Assembly (NCBI GenBank): GCA_013151635.1
Contig: JAADHV010000125.1
Location: 1 to 62,064 of the forward strand
Length of the DNA: 62,064 nucleotides
DNA from: Deltaproteobacteria bacterium
Lineage (GTDB): Bacteria > Desulfobacterota > Desulfobacteria > Desulfobacterales > Desulfobacteraceae
Direction: 5' to 3'
The stretch's first letter is position 1. Each line of letters starts with the position of its first letter. The notes under the pieces are model-generated. The model did no database searches. It saw nothing but the letters and a program-made list of their open reading frames with translations, and was not told where the DNA came from. This document shows positions 53,491-60,710 of this stretch, in pieces. Both the position numbers and the translations under genes were made by a program.

Positions 53491-53952
53491 ATGATCACTG
53501 AAACCGGAATTGTAACCGATGTTAATCCATCTTTTGCCTGGGTAAAAACGACCAGATCCAGTGCCTGCAAGTCCTGCTCATCCAGGGAAAGCTGCGACAC
53601 AGCCGGTGATCAACAGGAAATGACCGTTATGGTCAAAAACACACTCAATGTTGAAAAAGGCGATACTGTGCTCATTGGGCTTGAATCCAGGCATGTGCTT
53701 TATTTAACTTTTCTTCTATATGTGTTTCCCATTATTTTACTCGTCACAGGTGCTTTGATCGGCAATAGCCTTGCCCCTTTTTTTAATATGAACCCATCCC
53801 TTATATCAATGTTCTCAGGATCATTATTTTTCGGGCTGGCCTTTTATATAATCAGAAGAAAAAATAACTCACTTTCAAAGAAAGAAGAGTATAAACCCTT
53901 TCTTGTCAAAAAGAAATCCCAAGTTATTCCAGCCAGTTGTTCAATGCTTTAA
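53491..53952 (+). CDS. RseC/MucC-family (SoxR-reducing) integral membrane protein
   Basis: The protein has 153 residues. The N-terminal cytoplasmic domain holds the conserved cysteine cluster CKSCSSRESC, followed by two membrane helices (about 72-95 and 105-122) and a lysine-rich tail. In E. coli the related RseC lies by the sigma-E genes and, with Rnf/Rsx, keeps SoxR reduced. Here the gene lies 106 bp upstream of the cytochrome-rnf cluster on the same strand, consistent with a role in Rnf assembly or electron transfer. Confidence 0.8.
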   Translation: MITETGIVTDVNPSFAWVKTTRSSACKSCSSRESCDTAGDQQEMTVMVKNTLNVEKGDTVLIGLESRHVLYLTFLLYVFPIILLVTGALIGNSLAPFFNMNPSLISMFSGSLFFGLAFYIIRRKNNSLSKKEEYKPFLVKKKSQVIPASCSML

Positions 53953-54058: not shown

Positions 54059-54424
54059 ATGACATCACAACGAGACCTAAAAGTAGCTATATTAATTATG
54101 ACCATATTTTTGGTCACAGGAATTATATGCTATGCCTCTTTTACCCCCCCTGCACCTGAAAATCCGGTACGATTGATGTTTCAGACCAAAGCCGGCAAAG
54201 TTTTATTCACCCATTCGGTACACGCAGGCGATTATACGGATGATTGCCAGGACTGCCATCATAACATTGAAGATGATGAAACCTACAACTGCAGTGAGTG
54301 CCATGAAGACAAAGGTGATGAAGACTTGCCATCCAGAGCTGATGCATTTCATGCCAAGTGCAAGGGATGCCATGAAGATGTTGGCGCAGGTCCGGTAGAA
54401 TGTAATTCGTGTCATACATTATAG
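54059..54424 (+). CDS. tetraheme c-type cytochrome (class III/c7-like), Rnf-associated
   Basis: The protein has 121 residues. A hydrophobic N-terminus (about 9-26) serves as signal or anchor; the rest is periplasmic. Four CxxCH haem sites are present: CQDCH, CSECH, CKGCH and CNSCH. Histidines in FTHSVHAGDY and CHH are probable distal ligands. It lies directly before rnfC, so it is the likely periplasmic electron partner of the Rnf complex, as multiheme cytochromes are in other sulfate reducers and in Methanosarcina. Confidence 0.9.
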   Translation: MTSQRDLKVAILIMTIFLVTGIICYASFTPPAPENPVRLMFQTKAGKVLFTHSVHAGDYTDDCQDCHHNIEDDETYNCSECHEDKGDEDLPSRADAFHAKCKGCHEDVGAGPVECNSCHTL

Positions 54425-55780: not shown

Positions 55781-56749
55781 ATGAATAAATATAAATTAAC
55801 CGTATCCCATGCCCCTTTCTGGCATGATGGAGACAGTCTTTTTAAGATGAACCTGAATATCATGATTGCAGCCCTTCCGGCTGTCATTTTCGGTGTTATT
55901 CAGTTCGGTGCACCCGCTGTTGGTGTACTTGCACTATCTCTTTCCAGTGCCATGGTATGGGAACTTATATTAAATGTTATATCCAGAAACAAGATCACCA
56001 TCGGTGATCTTGATTCTGCTGTCATAGGACTTCTTTTCGGCATGATGCTCCCTGCCACATCCCCATGGTGGCTTGTCATCACAGGAACCTTTGTTTCCGT
56101 GGTGATAGGAAAAATGATTTTCGGCGGTATCGGGGCAAACCCCTTTAACCCCGCCCTCATTGGAATGGCATTTCTAATACTTTCCTGGAAAATATTTTTT
56201 GATTTCGATGCTGCATATCTTAATTATGAATTCGGGTTTACGGCTCTTGCACCCCTGGCCGCACTTAAAGCTAAAGGGGCCCTGGCGGTTGCCGGCCTTT
56301 TCCCGGTAAAAGATCTTATAATGGGCAGGCAGGTGGGTGCCATCGGCTGCACATTCGGCCTTGGCCTTATCATAGGCGGTATCTACCTGATCTTACGGGG
56401 ATACATAAGATGGGAAATTACAATCTCATTTATTCTGGGCATCATAATTACTTCCTTTTGCTTCAACATTGCAAAGCCTGATGTTTATGCAGGCCCGATG
56501 CTTCATCTTTTTTCAGGGTATACACTGCTTGGTGCATTCTTTCTTGCAACGGAAAACTCATCTTCACCGGTCAACACGATTCCCATGTTCATCTACGGTT
56601 TTTTTGCCGCGGCCATGATCATCCTGATGAGGAACATTGGTGCTTATCCTGACGGTACCATACTGGCCATCCTGTTAGCAAACCTTGTGAACCCCCTGAT
56701 GGATAAAATAAGACCCAAAGCCTGGGGGAAGGGAGTCAACAATGCGTGA
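55781..56749 (+). CDS. rnfD: Rnf complex subunit RnfD
   Basis: The protein has 322 residues and about nine to ten membrane helices. Family features are VSHAPFWHDGDSLFKMNLNI, GKMIFGGIGANPFNPALIG, and LATENSSSPVNTIPM, the last containing the region where RnfD carries a covalent FMN on a threonine. It ends 8 bp inside rnfG. It is a core part of the sodium- or proton-pumping membrane arm. Confidence 0.92.
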   Translation: MNKYKLTVSHAPFWHDGDSLFKMNLNIMIAALPAVIFGVIQFGAPAVGVLALSLSSAMVWELILNVISRNKITIGDLDSAVIGLLFGMMLPATSPWWLVITGTFVSVVIGKMIFGGIGANPFNPALIGMAFLILSWKIFFDFDAAYLNYEFGFTALAPLAALKAKGALAVAGLFPVKDLIMGRQVGAIGCTFGLGLIIGGIYLILRGYIRWEITISFILGIIITSFCFNIAKPDVYAGPMLHLFSGYTLLGAFFLATENSSSPVNTIPMFIYGFFAAAMIILMRNIGAYPDGTILAILLANLVNPLMDKIRPKAWGKGVNNA

Positions 56750-57323
56750 AATGATTAGTATGATTGTAGTTTTAACCGTGTTGACGGCTGTTTCAGGCGG
56801 GCTGCTGGCTGCCGTCAAATCAGGGACCGAGGTTCGAATCGAAAATCAGGTTCTAAAATTTCAAAAAGCTCCCGCTATTAAAGAACTCTTTCCGAAAGCG
56901 ACCAATAATCCTTTAGCGGAAAGATTTACCGTAAAAGACGGAAAGACTGAGTGGCAAATTTTTCCGACTAAACTTCCAGACGGTTCAAAAGCAATTGCCT
57001 TTGAAACCCACGGGATCGGATTTGCAGGACCAGTGGGATTGATGGTCGGAATTAATCTTAAAACAGATCATATCGTTGGTGCAAGGGTAACTACTCACTC
57101 TGAAACTCCAGGCGTTGGTGCCAGGGCAAAAGATGACCCTACCTTTGTTTCCCAGTTTGCCGGCATGAGTCTTGATAAAAAATTTGCCATAAAAAGCGAC
57201 GGCGGTGACATTGATGGCATATCCGGTGCCACGTTTACCTCAAAAGGGGTCTGCGTTGCAGCCAGACAGGCAAAAGAAATATACCGGAAACTTAAACCTG
57301 AAATTCTGAAACAGATCAAATAG
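56742..57323 (+). CDS. rnfG: Rnf complex subunit RnfG
   Basis: The protein has 193 residues. One N-terminal membrane helix anchors a periplasmic FMN-binding domain. GARVTTHSETPGVGARAK and DIDGISGATFTSKGV are conserved; the threonine in SGATFTS is the site of covalent flavin attachment. The start overlaps rnfD by 8 bp. It would hand electrons between the cytochrome side and RnfD. Confidence 0.92.
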   Translation: MREMISMIVVLTVLTAVSGGLLAAVKSGTEVRIENQVLKFQKAPAIKELFPKATNNPLAERFTVKDGKTEWQIFPTKLPDGSKAIAFETHGIGFAGPVGLMVGINLKTDHIVGARVTTHSETPGVGARAKDDPTFVSQFAGMSLDKKFAIKSDGGDIDGISGATFTSKGVCVAARQAKEIYRKLKPEILKQIK

Positions 57324-57349: not shown

Positions 57350-57958
57350 ATGGCACAATCCTTGGCAAAAGAATTTACAAAAGGACTCTGGGCTGAAATA
57401 CCTCCTTTCAGGCTGGTTTTAGGGCTTTGCCCGACCCTTGCAGTAACAAAAACCGTTGAAAACGGGATCGGGATGGGAGTTGCGACCGCATTTGTACTGG
57501 TCTTTTCCAATCTCCTGGTTTCAATGCTCAGGAATTTAATTCCTTCAAAAGTTAGAATTGCCTGCTATATTGTTATTATCGCCACATTTGTTACCATTGT
57601 GGAACTCTTGATGCAGGCTTTTACATATCCATTATATTTAAAACTGGGAATCTTTATTCCCTTGATTGTTGTAAACTGTATTCTTCTGGGAAGAGCAGAA
57701 GCCTTTGCCAGCAAGAATTCACCTATTCTCTCCCTTGCAGACGGCCTGGGGATGGGTATCGGATATACCCTTGCACTGGGTGCCTTAGGTGGGGTCAGGG
57801 AAATCATAGGCCATGGGACCCTTACCTTCTGGGGCGGAACGCCTGTTTTTGAAATGGGGGCATGGTTCCATCCGTTTGCCTTCATGATTCAGGCGCCGGG
57901 TGCATTTGTTGCACTTGGACTGATGCTCTGCTTCATGAATCTTATGGGGAAACAATAA
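57350..57958 (+). CDS. rnfE: Rnf complex subunit RnfE
   Basis: The protein has 202 residues and six membrane helices. LAKEFTKGLWAEIPPFRLVLGLCPTLAVT is the recognised start, followed by IPLIVVNCILLGRAEAFASK, which includes a conserved cysteine. With RnfA it forms the inverted-repeat channel pair. A 26-bp gap with GGAGAAT separates it from rnfG. Confidence 0.92.
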   Translation: MAQSLAKEFTKGLWAEIPPFRLVLGLCPTLAVTKTVENGIGMGVATAFVLVFSNLLVSMLRNLIPSKVRIACYIVIIATFVTIVELLMQAFTYPLYLKLGIFIPLIVVNCILLGRAEAFASKNSPILSLADGLGMGIGYTLALGALGGVREIIGHGTLTFWGGTPVFEMGAWFHPFAFMIQAPGAFVALGLMLCFMNLMGKQ

Positions 57959-57973
57959 AAAGGAGAAAATAAA

Positions 57974-58549
57974 ATGGAAGACCTGTTTGTTCTTGCTATA
58001 AGCTGTATTTTTATCAATAATATTCTCCTTGCCCAGTATCTTGGAAACTGTCCGTTCCTGGGCACATCCAAAAAAATGGAAACTGCAATTGGCATGGCCA
58101 TGGCTGTTATTTTCGTATTGGTCATGGCAGGAGGACTCACTTGGATTGTAAACGAATATCTGTTAAAAACCCTTGATGTGGAGTACCTGCAGACGGTTTC
58201 ATTTATCCTCGTGATTGCATCCCTGGTCCAGTTTGTTGAAATGTTTCTTAAAAAAAGCATTCCGGCCCTTTATTCAGGCCTGGGCATTTTTCTTCCCCTT
58301 ATTACCACAAATTGTGCGGTTATGGGTGTCGCCCTGATTAACATGAAGGAAGGATATTCATTTCTTGAAGCCATTGTTGCATCCTTTGCCTATGCGATCG
58401 GATATGGACTGGCTTTGATATTGTTTGCCGGAATCAGGGAGAGAATCCTTCTTGCCAGGGTTCCAAAGCCTTTACAGGACACATCCATAGGGCTTATAAC
58501 AGCAGGCATAATTGCAATAACCTTTATGTCATTTAAAGGAATGGTTTAA
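57974..58549 (+). CDS. rnfA: Rnf complex subunit RnfA
   Basis: The protein has 191 residues and six membrane helices. The start LAISCIFINNILLAQYLGNCPFLG and the segment GIFLPLITTNCAVMGVALIN contain the two conserved cysteines that coordinate an intramembrane iron-sulfur centre with RnfE. The ribosome site is AAAAGGAGA. It precedes rnfB by 70 bp. Confidence 0.93.
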   Translation: MEDLFVLAISCIFINNILLAQYLGNCPFLGTSKKMETAIGMAMAVIFVLVMAGGLTWIVNEYLLKTLDVEYLQTVSFILVIASLVQFVEMFLKKSIPALYSGLGIFLPLITTNCAVMGVALINMKEGYSFLEAIVASFAYAIGYGLALILFAGIRERILLARVPKPLQDTSIGLITAGIIAITFMSFKGMV

Positions 58550-58619: not shown

Positions 58620-60710
58620 ATGATCCCAGCTTTATTGTTCATGTTAGGCATAGGCGCCGTATGCGGTATTATCTTAAGCCTTTCATCCAAGGTATTTTAT
58701 GTTTATGAAGACCCGAGAATCGCTAATGTGGAAAACAACCTGGCCGGTGCAAACTGCGGTGGCTGCGGTTATGCAGGATGCTCTGCCGCAGCGGAAGCAA
58801 TTGTAACAGGAAAGGAACTGCCAAGCCTCTGCATTATATCCGGCAAAGAAGGTGCAGAAAAAGTAGCGCAAATAATGGGGGTGGACGTATGTTCTGCAGA
58901 AAGTCCGCTGTCTTACAGCATGTGTGAAGGCGGATCCCGTGCTGCTGATAAATACCACTATATGGGAATTTCATCCTGCAGGGCAATGGCGGTTGTATTC
59001 GGAGGGAAAAGAGTCTGCAGCGTAGGATGTATCGGCCTTGGCGACTGTGTAAAGGCGTGTAAATTCGGTGCTCTCCAACTTGGCCCCAAAGGCTACCCTG
59101 TGGTTGATGATGACAAATGTGTAGGGTGCGGTGCCTGCCAGCAGGCTTGCCCAAAAGAGATTATAGAAGTAAAAACCCTTTCTGAAAAACTCATGAAATT
59201 TAACCAGAAACAGGATCCCCTGGCACCATGTGCCCAGACCTGCCCTGCTGAAATTAACATCCCAAGATATATCAACCAGATAAAGGAAGGCAGATATAAA
59301 GAAGCGGTTCAAACCATACGTATGAGAAACCCGCTGCCGCTGGCCTGTGGCAGGGTTTGCCCGCATCCATGTGAAAGTGAATGCAGGAGGGGAATTGAAG
59401 ATGAGCCGGTTTCCATAAACCAGCTCAAACGGTTTGCCTCGGATTATGAAATGGATTCAGGTTCCAGGATACCCATTAAATGCGCACCGGATACGGGCAA
59501 AAAAATTGCTGTGATCGGTGGCGGGCCTTCAGGGCTTTCGTGTGCATTCTTCCTTCGCAGGATCGGGCATCAGGTCGATATCTTTGAGGCCATGCCCAAA
59601 CTTGGCGGCATGCTCAGATACGGCATCCCTGAGTACCGTCTTCCAAAAAAAGTCCTGGACTGGGAAATCCAGGGAATTCTTGATCTTGGCATCAAGTCAT
59701 TCTGCCATGTTAAATTCGGCGCTGATTTCGGGCTCGGGTCTTTGATGGCATCAGGGTATAACGCAGTATTTCTCGGTGTAGGTGCCTGGAAAGACTATTC
59801 TCTTGGTATAGAAGGGGAAAACCTTGACGGTTGCTATACAGGAATTGATTTTTTGCAAAAAATGTCCAGTGGCAAGAAAGTAAACCTGGGGAAAAGAGCT
59901 GCCGTGGTTGGCGGGGGCAATACAGCTGTTGACTGTGCAAGAACCCTTTTAAGATCAGGGCTTGAAAAAGTCTACATGGTTTACAGGAGGACAAGAAAGG
60001 AAATGCCGGCCAATGAGGTTGAAATCGTGGCATCTGAAGAAGAAGGCATTGAGTTCGTTTTCCTGGCCGCACCCACGAGGGTAATTGGTGATGACAGTGA
60101 TAAAACCACCCATATTGAATACCTTAAAATGCAGCTTGGTGAACCTGATGCCAGTGGCAGACGCCGCCCCGAGCCGATTGAAGGCTCTGAGACCCTCCTT
60201 GAGGTGGACATGGTTATCTCCGCCATTGGACAGTCCCCTGATCCTTCCTTTAAAGAACAGGATCCCCATAAAAGGATGGTTGAACTCGAACTTACAAGGT
60301 GGAATACAATTGATAATGACCCCGCAACAATGCAGGCTTCCATCCCCTATATTTTTACGGCAGGGGATGCAGCTACAGGGCCATCGCTTGTTGTTGAAGC
60401 CATTGGCGGTGGGAGGCGTGCCGCAAGATCCATTGACTTGTTCCTGAAAGGCCGGCCTGTTGAACCGGTAAAAGATTCTCTACAGCAAAAAAGGATTCGC
60501 GAATCCATCTTCAAAAAAGTGGACGGCATTAAAAAGACACCAAGGGCAAAAATGCCGGAGATTCAAGTTGACGGAAGGCTTGATTCTTTTGTTGAAGTTG
60601 ATCTTGTTCTGCCGGAGGATACGGCCCATGAAGAAGCAAAAAGATGCCTGGACTGCTGCAGGATTTGCTACAACCCGGACACTGATTTCCCCATTGCAGG
60701 GAATAATTAA
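58620..60710 (+). CDS. rnfB: RnfB fused to a GltD/NfnB-like FAD-NAD(P) oxidoreductase
   Basis: The protein has 696 residues, more than twice a standard RnfB. Residues 1-190 are RnfB: a membrane helix, the CGGCGYAGC four-cysteine domain near 46-54, and ferredoxin clusters CIGLGDCVKAC and CVGCGACQQAC. Residues 200-650 are a full glutamate-synthase small-subunit-type module: CAQTCPAEINIPRYI and CGRVCPHPCESECRRG (iron-sulfur), AVIGGGPSGLSCAFFLRR near 297 (FAD), AAVVGGGNTAVDCARTLL near 427 (NAD(P)), and FTAGDAATGPSLVVEAIGGG (FAD). The C-terminus adds CLDCCRICYNPD. The module lets RnfB accept or donate NAD(P)H electrons beside ferredoxin. No stop or frame change separates the parts. Confidence 0.92.
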   Translation: MIPALLFMLGIGAVCGIILSLSSKVFYVYEDPRIANVENNLAGANCGGCGYAGCSAAAEAIVTGKELPSLCIISGKEGAEKVAQIMGVDVCSAESPLSYSMCEGGSRAADKYHYMGISSCRAMAVVFGGKRVCSVGCIGLGDCVKACKFGALQLGPKGYPVVDDDKCVGCGACQQACPKEIIEVKTLSEKLMKFNQKQDPLAPCAQTCPAEINIPRYINQIKEGRYKEAVQTIRMRNPLPLACGRVCPHPCESECRRGIEDEPVSINQLKRFASDYEMDSGSRIPIKCAPDTGKKIAVIGGGPSGLSCAFFLRRIGHQVDIFEAMPKLGGMLRYGIPEYRLPKKVLDWEIQGILDLGIKSFCHVKFGADFGLGSLMASGYNAVFLGVGAWKDYSLGIEGENLDGCYTGIDFLQKMSSGKKVNLGKRAAVVGGGNTAVDCARTLLRSGLEKVYMVYRRTRKEMPANEVEIVASEEEGIEFVFLAAPTRVIGDDSDKTTHIEYLKMQLGEPDASGRRRPEPIEGSETLLEVDMVISAIGQSPDPSFKEQDPHKRMVELELTRWNTIDNDPATMQASIPYIFTAGDAATGPSLVVEAIGGGRRAARSIDLFLKGRPVEPVKDSLQQKRIRESIFKKVDGIKKTPRAKMPEIQVDGRLDSFVEVDLVLPEDTAHEEAKRCLDCCRICYNPDTDFPIAGNN

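Follow-up and report, generated by a model that had tools for sequence, protein, structure and literature searches.

In the Rnf complex of A. woodii, electrons are described as passing from ferredoxin to RnfB, the [2Fe-2S] cluster of RnfA/E and the FMN of RnfG (T185), and onward from RnfG through the FMN of RnfD (T156), riboflavin (N123, D249) and the clusters of RnfC to an FMN and NAD+ (PMC11889175). A second kind, Rnf2 or 'D. toluolica-type', has an RnfB of ~700 residues that carries NAD-binding sites, whereas its RnfC is devoid of NADH and SLBB domains; its mode of action was stated to await verification (PMC5109826). Rnf2 has also been assigned to the core genome, found constitutively formed in six strains and placed between the NADH and ferredoxin pools (PMC11887813). 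The Rnf of M. acetivorans is cytochrome-linked and unreactive with NAD(P), with RnfG as the proposed exit and only 'SGTF' as a possible flavin motif in its RnfD (PMC4023990). In D. alaskensis, rnf is needed for growth on H2 or formate, dhcA, the cytochrome of the operon, was of no fitness importance bar one pyruvate fermentation experiment, and the authors regard the complex as a ferredoxin:NADH oxidoreductase (PMC4215793). The NQR/RNF-like systems, finally, lack a conserved flavinylation site in their RnfD-like part, and for them one-way export (PMC10979944, PMC8238504) as well as a non-covalent flavin have been proposed.

Here we analyse an rnf operon in a stretch of 62,064 nucleotides (contig JAADHV010000125.1, assembly GCA_013151635.1; hereafter the window) from a member of the Desulfobacteraceae. 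With an RnfB of about 700 residues, a cytochrome in the cluster and neither NADH nor SLBB domains in RnfC, the system is the Rnf2 of this family, as known from D. toluolica and D. multivorans, so that the fusion itself has been published before (PMC5109826, PMC11887813). The RnfD flavin site, a StnC-like lysine and a second RnfB-GltD type are unmentioned in the covered text of the Rnf2 papers. A search of the main texts of mostly open-access papers found no report of the RnfD loss, of the lysine or of the neighbourhood of the second type, and within the literature searched these and the clade-wide RnfC/RnfD motif loss seem to be new.

Organisation of the operon

All six Rnf subunits (A, B, C, D, E and G) are encoded in one operon, which runs from an rseC-like gene and a multihaem cytochrome c gene through rnfC, D, G, E and A to the rnfB fusion and is followed by an unrelated YceG gene (Table 1). 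The order from the cytochrome to the fusion recurs in many relatives, and the cytochrome frames of other clusters hold 4-10 CxxCH motifs in 49 out of 50 cases, the remaining one being a fragment of 69 residues (L067). The system shares with canonical Rnf (A. woodii, C. tetanomorphum) the subunits A-E and G, the flavin motif of RnfG, the cysteines of RnfA/E and the cluster motifs of RnfC, but differs in that its RnfC lacks the FMN/NADH motif, its RnfD lacks the covalent-FMN motif and its RnfB is fused to a GltD-type module. A check for Na+-NQR found no NqrF in place of RnfB in the window operon. Elsewhere in the same genome (95% complete) there is an Nqr-like cluster (L138, G000:C46) and no canonical Rnf was found; a search of this genome for the RnfD family matched only L138 and the window cluster. 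In two genomes of one genus (L199, L200), RnfE is divided between two adjacent reading frames.

Table 1. Features of the rnf region in the window.
Feature	Coordinates	Strand	Evidence
rseC-like gene, head of rnf region	53491..53952	+	Pfam RseC_MucC 2.9e-33; same position in many close relatives
Small multihaem cytochrome c (class III type)	54059..54424	+	4 CxxCH; N-terminal hydrophobic stretch; Pfam Cytochrom_CIII 4e-13
rnfC, 423 aa	54495..55766	+	Two CxxCxxxC motifs kept; GxGGAxFP and SLBB not found
rnfD, 322 aa	55781..56749	+	Ala157 (bases 56249-56251) at the place of A. woodii T156; aligned to 9eri_D, 7zc6_D
rnfG	56742..57323	+	SGAT FMN motif kept; RnfG_DVU2794 model 251.7 bits (cut-off 205)
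rnfE	57350..57958	+	Membrane [2Fe-2S] cysteines C27 and C110 both kept
rnfA	57974..58549	+	Membrane [2Fe-2S] cysteines C26 and C114 both kept
rnfB-GltD fusion, 696 aa	58620..60710	+	ATG start; frame open, no stop
RnfB part (residues 1-190)	58620..59189	+	Membrane helix, FeS domain, Fe-S dicluster; cysteines conserved
GltD/StnC-like module (about residues 196-686)	59205..60677	+	Pfam/NCBIfam matches; structure-chain alignment
CLDC, C-terminal in module	60645-60656	+	Family alignment

Extent and distribution of the fusion

Within the fusion, Pfam identifies the FeS domain of RnfB at residues 41-72 and a Fer4 dicluster at 137-181, followed by Fer4_20 at 202-280 and Pyr_redox_2 at 295-598, while among the NCBIfam models TIGR01944 (rnfB) scores above its cut-off over residues 4-198 and those of GltD type span about residues 195-684. 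Near-full-length matches, starting at residue 17 or before and ending at residue 687 or after, occur in 44 of 58 genomes, the window's own included, at 56-100% identity, and the frame is without an internal stop in 42 of these 44 (G023 has one stop and G035 two). A sequence-only reading of the window had described an RnfB joined to a GltD-type FAD/NAD(P) module, which the open frame, the domain matches and the relatives with the same two-part layout confirm; the stop codon near residue 195 that it feared might have been lost to a sequencing error is contradicted by the frame being open in 42 genomes, own included, and a pseudo-fusion is dismissed on the same ground. It had also given the module an N-terminal cluster of its own: the cluster domain is indeed there, but the first CxxC of the solved chain 4ylf_B, which lies ahead of that domain, is missing.

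Across a sample of the phylum, (nearly) full-length matches with at least 50% identity were found in at least 23 of 297 genomes, a lower bound because three candidates were scored per genome. Named carriers include Desulfobacter vibrioformis, Desulfospira joergensenii and several Desulfobacula records. One genome (G044), whose fusion is 65% identical to the window protein, has a canonical rnf at 3.10 Mb and the fused type at 3.11 Mb; for D. multivorans, the positions given for Rnf are 3.09 and 3.11 (PMC5109826). Relatives of the fusion were divided at 47% identity to the window protein into two types, A and P, with the 65 type A rows including L037 (47%, ruined NAD(P) motif) and L167-L171 (no membrane part). 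A C-terminal CxxC (C676/C679) is conserved in 63 of 65 close and in 20 of 20 distant relatives. Between residues 643-679 and the N-terminus of 4ylf_B there is a weak, non-significant stretch of similarity (3 bits), and a circular permutation of the module is only a guess. The AlphaFold model of the fusion, built from a shallow alignment of 18, has a mean pLDDT of 38.7, and no conclusion is drawn from it.

Nucleotide and cluster sites of the GltD module

Among solved structures, the GltD part is best matched by 9bov_A, 9n5u_A (a 963-residue chain titled NfnA) and 8oh5_C, and then by 4ylf_B, which we take to be NfnB, and 5jca_L (NfnI). From its length of 1172 and its residue numbers, we infer that 8oh5_C is StnC, an NADPH-binding protein that has lost bifurcation and in which the proximal cluster has K170 or C114 as its ligand where NfnB uses a glutamate (PMC10482914). 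K270 of the window protein (bases 59427-59429) aligns with K170 of 8oh5_C, where NfnB has Glu. All but one of the 65 type A proteins and all 20 type P proteins have this lysine, with Ile or Val at the place of C114. The module has the FAD motif GGGPSGL and the NAD(P) motif GGGNTA (59907-59933), with GGGNTA...YRRTRKEMPA retained, and NAD(P) and FAD motifs are complete in 64 of the 65 type A fusions. With StnC it has in common the GltD module, the NADPH site, two clusters and the Lys at the proximal cluster; StnC, however, has a NuoG domain after its GltD part and StnAB as its partners, whereas the window module sits on a membrane-bound RnfB, and neither the NuoG domain nor StnAB partners are present in the fusion and its neighbouring genes. 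With NfnB (NfnL) it shares, by sequence, the GltD fold with FAD and NAD(P) motifs, but has Lys270 in place of the Glu ligand.

NADPH, which the earlier reading had suggested as a possible substitute for NADH, would be the likelier nucleotide: the closest solved chains include NADPH-binding StnC, and GGGNTA...YRRTRKEMPA, with its double Arg, is kept. Flavin-based bifurcation, raised there as well, fares worse. A bifurcating RnfB-GltD would pass one electron from NADPH to ferredoxin and one to the membrane part, for which the bifurcating relative NfnB and the ferredoxin-type dicluster of RnfB offer some grounds; but NfnB's cluster-ligating Glu is replaced by Lys270, and in the relatives of the fusion by the same Lys with the single exception given above, StnC with this Lys has lost bifurcation (PMC10482914), and no nfnA is found among the genes adjoining the fusion in the window, which are rnfA and the YceG gene. 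We consider it highly improbable, and K270 removed it as the main reading. Given the StnC-like Lys at the proximal cluster and the intact motifs, the module is expected to oxidise NADPH simply, with one-electron delivery and no bifurcation.

Separate GltD-like genes (487-668 residues, 41-45% identity) were also observed within a few kb of canonical rnf (L218, L220, L222, L230, L233), and such a gene is a possible source of the fusion partner.

Motif losses in RnfC and RnfD

RnfC of the window aligns to solved RnfC chains and yet is without the GxGGAxFP FMN/NADH motif. It reaches 23.4 bits with Complex1_51K, below the cut-off of 31.2, and is below the cut-off of TIGR01945 as well, whereas three canonical RnfC used as controls score 164-184 bits and have SLBB. 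Other RnfC of the clade defined below give similar results (L032, 26.9 bits; L196, 28.2 bits; both without SLBB), although that of L160 exceeds the cut-off with 36.6 bits and keeps SLBB, with GxGGAxFP absent. In RnfD, the covalent-FMN Thr motif [ST]xAT is absent, while, in the structure-chain alignment, Asn is retained at the place of N123 and Glu stands at that of D249. As the FMN/NADH site of RnfC was not found, we do not claim a canonical ferredoxin:NAD+ Rnf; with the covalent-FMN motif of RnfD missing too, the fused module probably stands in for the former NADH site of RnfC rather than adding a second one.

The same losses recur in a survey of 127 clusters, each of which has an RnfD 200 residues long or longer. 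RnfD lacks [ST]xAT in 91 and has it in 36; RnfC lacks GxGGAxFP in all 88 assessable clusters of the RnfD-loss group and has it in 29 of 33 outside, the four exceptions being L137 and L138, Nqr-like in look, L226 and L231. A Thr occupies the RnfD column, outside the motif, in four fused clusters (L160, L162-L164). Other sites were retained: [ST]GAT of RnfG in 87/90 clusters of the loss group and 31/33 outside, the cysteines of RnfA and RnfE in 45/45 and 49/49 clade rows (checked on part), both CxxCxxxC motifs of RnfC in 88/88 clade clusters, and, in RnfD of the clade, the riboflavin Asn in 78/91 and an acid at the place of Asp (D249) in 91/91. Of the 88 assessable clade clusters, 71 have a frame with at least three CxxCH in the 2.5 kb upstream of rnfC, as against none of 33 outside; this count excludes the window's own row with its four CxxCH. 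The 17 without one include L160, L162-L165, L157 and L174-L176 and are partly due to contig ends; they weaken the case for the cytochrome as a strict partner.

With respect to RnfB, the loss group comprises 57 fused clusters, 13 with a small RnfB and 21 in which none or only a short piece was found, and it contains all fused clusters. The 13 small-RnfB clusters show the losses as well, for which reason we reject the fusion as their cause. Three of them (L195-L197), in which the order is cyt-CDGEAB and the cytochrome has ten haems, are taken as Desulfovibrio-like on the basis of the RnfG_DVU2794 model and the covered part of PMC4841214. A further fused cluster (L037, G050) shares a branch with the Desulfovibrio-like clusters; its cytochrome frame is of the ten-haem kind, and its NAD(P) motif is damaged.

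We mapped the fusion on a tree of Rnf clusters computed with IQ-TREE from RnfA and RnfE only, that is, from no trait genes (394 columns), for 70 of the 127 clusters, hand-picked to spread over families. A single branch, supported at 100/100, separates the 46 motif-loss rows from all others, and the carriers of the fusion fall within this one clade. A FastTree tree that included RnfD, and omitted 15 near-identical clusters as well as those without RnfA, RnfE or RnfD, recovered the same clade (support 0.924); the tree free of trait genes is used in its stead. The motif losses are thus one evolutionary event and the survey counts are not independent. The form of RnfB changed between fused and small at least four times over the 38 clade rows with an RnfB, and at least seven times if types A, P and small are separated.

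These data bear on the published view, in which Rnf2 remains a cytoplasmic ferredoxin/NAD(P) oxidoreductase that pumps Na+ and connects the NADH pool with the ferredoxin pool. With its polarity reversed, NAD(P)H would react at RnfB, ferredoxin or another protein at the RnfC clusters, and the RnfD arm would work with non-covalent flavins. The retained cluster motifs of RnfC and the riboflavin Asn and acid of RnfD agree with it, as do the placement of Rnf2 between the NADH and ferredoxin pools (PMC11887813) and the dispensability of dhcA in D. alaskensis (PMC4215793), each in the text covered; against these stand the loss of the covalent-FMN motif in every one of the 91 clusters and the cytochrome frames upstream of rnfC, common inside the clade and absent outside. 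On balance, we regard it as rather unlikely.

A second kind of RnfB-GltD protein

A second match to the fusion, at 36-46% identity and starting within the first three residues, occurs in at least 40 of the 58 genomes. The 20 type P proteins that were read are 34-42% identical over the whole alignment; all keep the Fe-S cysteines of the RnfB part and the cluster domain, and none has the full NAD(P)/FAD set. The type P protein of the window's own genome lies away from the window (L031, G000:C51), divergent from a formate dehydrogenase gene. That gene (L031:6833-9679) encodes an alpha subunit with a NuoG-like N-terminus, and a single in-frame TGA interrupts it behind HCARL, as would be anticipated for a selenocysteine enzyme.

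Within 5 kb of the type P gene, 15 of the 20 loci, from 9 of 10 families, have a relative of that formate dehydrogenase (10) or a NuoF gene (5), and within 3 kb 12 of the 16 assessable loci have one or the other; no such gene was found within 5 kb at L173, L174, L177, L178 and L180. As a control, none of the 12 type A loci with both flanks, mostly from one family, adjoins a formate dehydrogenase or NuoF gene, and in 20 other genomes with type A there was none downstream and one upstream, a 32% fragment (L068). This control omits five shortened type A proteins and matches below 33% identity. At one of the shortened proteins outside it (L168), a molybdopterin oxidoreductase gene (30% match) lies about 1.3 kb away, which counts against a clean split between A and P. 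The shortened proteins (L167-L171, four f66 genomes and one f96) are fusion relatives of ~600 residues without the membrane helix and the FeS domain, and in three of these f66 genomes an rnf cluster that belongs to the motif-loss clade includes a small RnfB as well (L202-L204). Genes of rseC type, too, adjoin several distant type P genes (L033, L036, L038, L181, L182).

Type P genes also occur in and around rnf clusters. The genes of L209 are arranged as cyt-CDGEA-rnfB(P)-fdhA, a short gap included, and those of L036 as nuoE-nuoF-rnfB(P)-rseC. One genome (G239) has type P inside its rnf cluster (L177) and a type A gene without rnf genes around it (L149), and two others (G001 and G017, 97 and 78% complete) have a cluster without rnfB and a best match of the type P kind. 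This arrangement suggests exchangeable heads.

The small RnfB in 13 of 91 members of the clade and the lack of an intact NAD(P) site in all 20 type P proteins might also mean that the GltD module is an accessory with a regulatory or structural role, outside the redox traffic of a pump that is fed by ferredoxin only, as in Methanosarcina. Such an accessory would hardly explain why FAD and NAD(P) motifs are strictly kept in all but one of the type A fusions, and we find it improbable.

A proposed variant Rnf facing the periplasm

The reading that we prefer, and to which we give about even chances, is a variant Rnf whose site for pyridine nucleotides has shifted from RnfC to RnfB and whose main partners in electron exchange are periplasmic cytochromes. 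NADPH, or less likely NADH, would reduce the FAD of the GltD module by hydride transfer; single electrons would then travel through the Fe-S clusters of the module and those of RnfB and, with ion export driven on the way, through the [2Fe-2S] cluster that RnfA and RnfE hold between them, to arrive at the covalent FMN of RnfG on the outer side. There, RnfG would exchange them mainly with periplasmic multihaem cytochromes, either the operon's own or the general c3 pool or both. In reverse, electrons that cytochromes receive from H2 or formate, together with the ion gradient, could reduce NADP+. With the NADH/FMN motif of RnfC and the covalent-FMN motif of RnfD gone, the usual cytoplasmic return route would be cut or weakened. 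RnfC probably still carries electrons, as its CxxCxxxC motifs are kept throughout, and the riboflavin residues of RnfD and the clusters of RnfC mean that the inward arm may work with a non-covalent flavin. In favour of this reading are the joint motif losses in RnfC and RnfD, the retained sites of RnfG, RnfA and RnfE, the cytochrome frames upstream of rnfC, the complete NAD(P) and FAD motifs of type A and the M. acetivorans parallel; against it count the kept RnfC clusters and RnfD riboflavin residues, the Thr at the RnfD column in four fused clusters, the SLBB domain and Complex1_51K score of L160, the clusters without an upstream cytochrome and the dispensability of dhcA.

Among described systems, M. 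acetivorans Rnf, compared through its published description, shares a cytochrome in the operon, but is archaeal and fed by ferredoxin. The NQR/RNF-like systems have in common an NAD(P)H module joined to part of Rnf; they consist, however, of RnfD-like and RnfG-like parts only, with a PF00175 domain, whereas the window system keeps the RnfA/E/B arm. D. alaskensis Rnf is presumably a member of the motif-loss clade. If it has cytochromes as partners, a cytochrome other than the dispensable dhcA must serve.

More broadly, and only tentatively, the clade may represent one pump with exchangeable heads: a small ferredoxin-type RnfB, type A with its NAD(P)H site, or type P. The latter could, on an equally tentative footing, be an adaptor for formate dehydrogenase or a NuoEF module, and no more firmly would we propose that the NADH exit has been given up in the cytochrome-linked Rnf of the phylum. 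If true, the heads would make a family of periplasmic cytochrome c reductases driven by NAD(P)H, NADH, formate or ferredoxin, one that takes in the Desulfovibrio-like Rnf so far assumed to be ferredoxin:NAD+ oxidoreductases. In the literature, Rnf2 and D. alaskensis Rnf both figure as ferredoxin:NAD+ pumps. Should RnfC indeed have lost its contact with NADH, and RnfD its bound FMN, the energy balances of sulfate reducers that include a ferredoxin:NAD+ Rnf would have to be revised.
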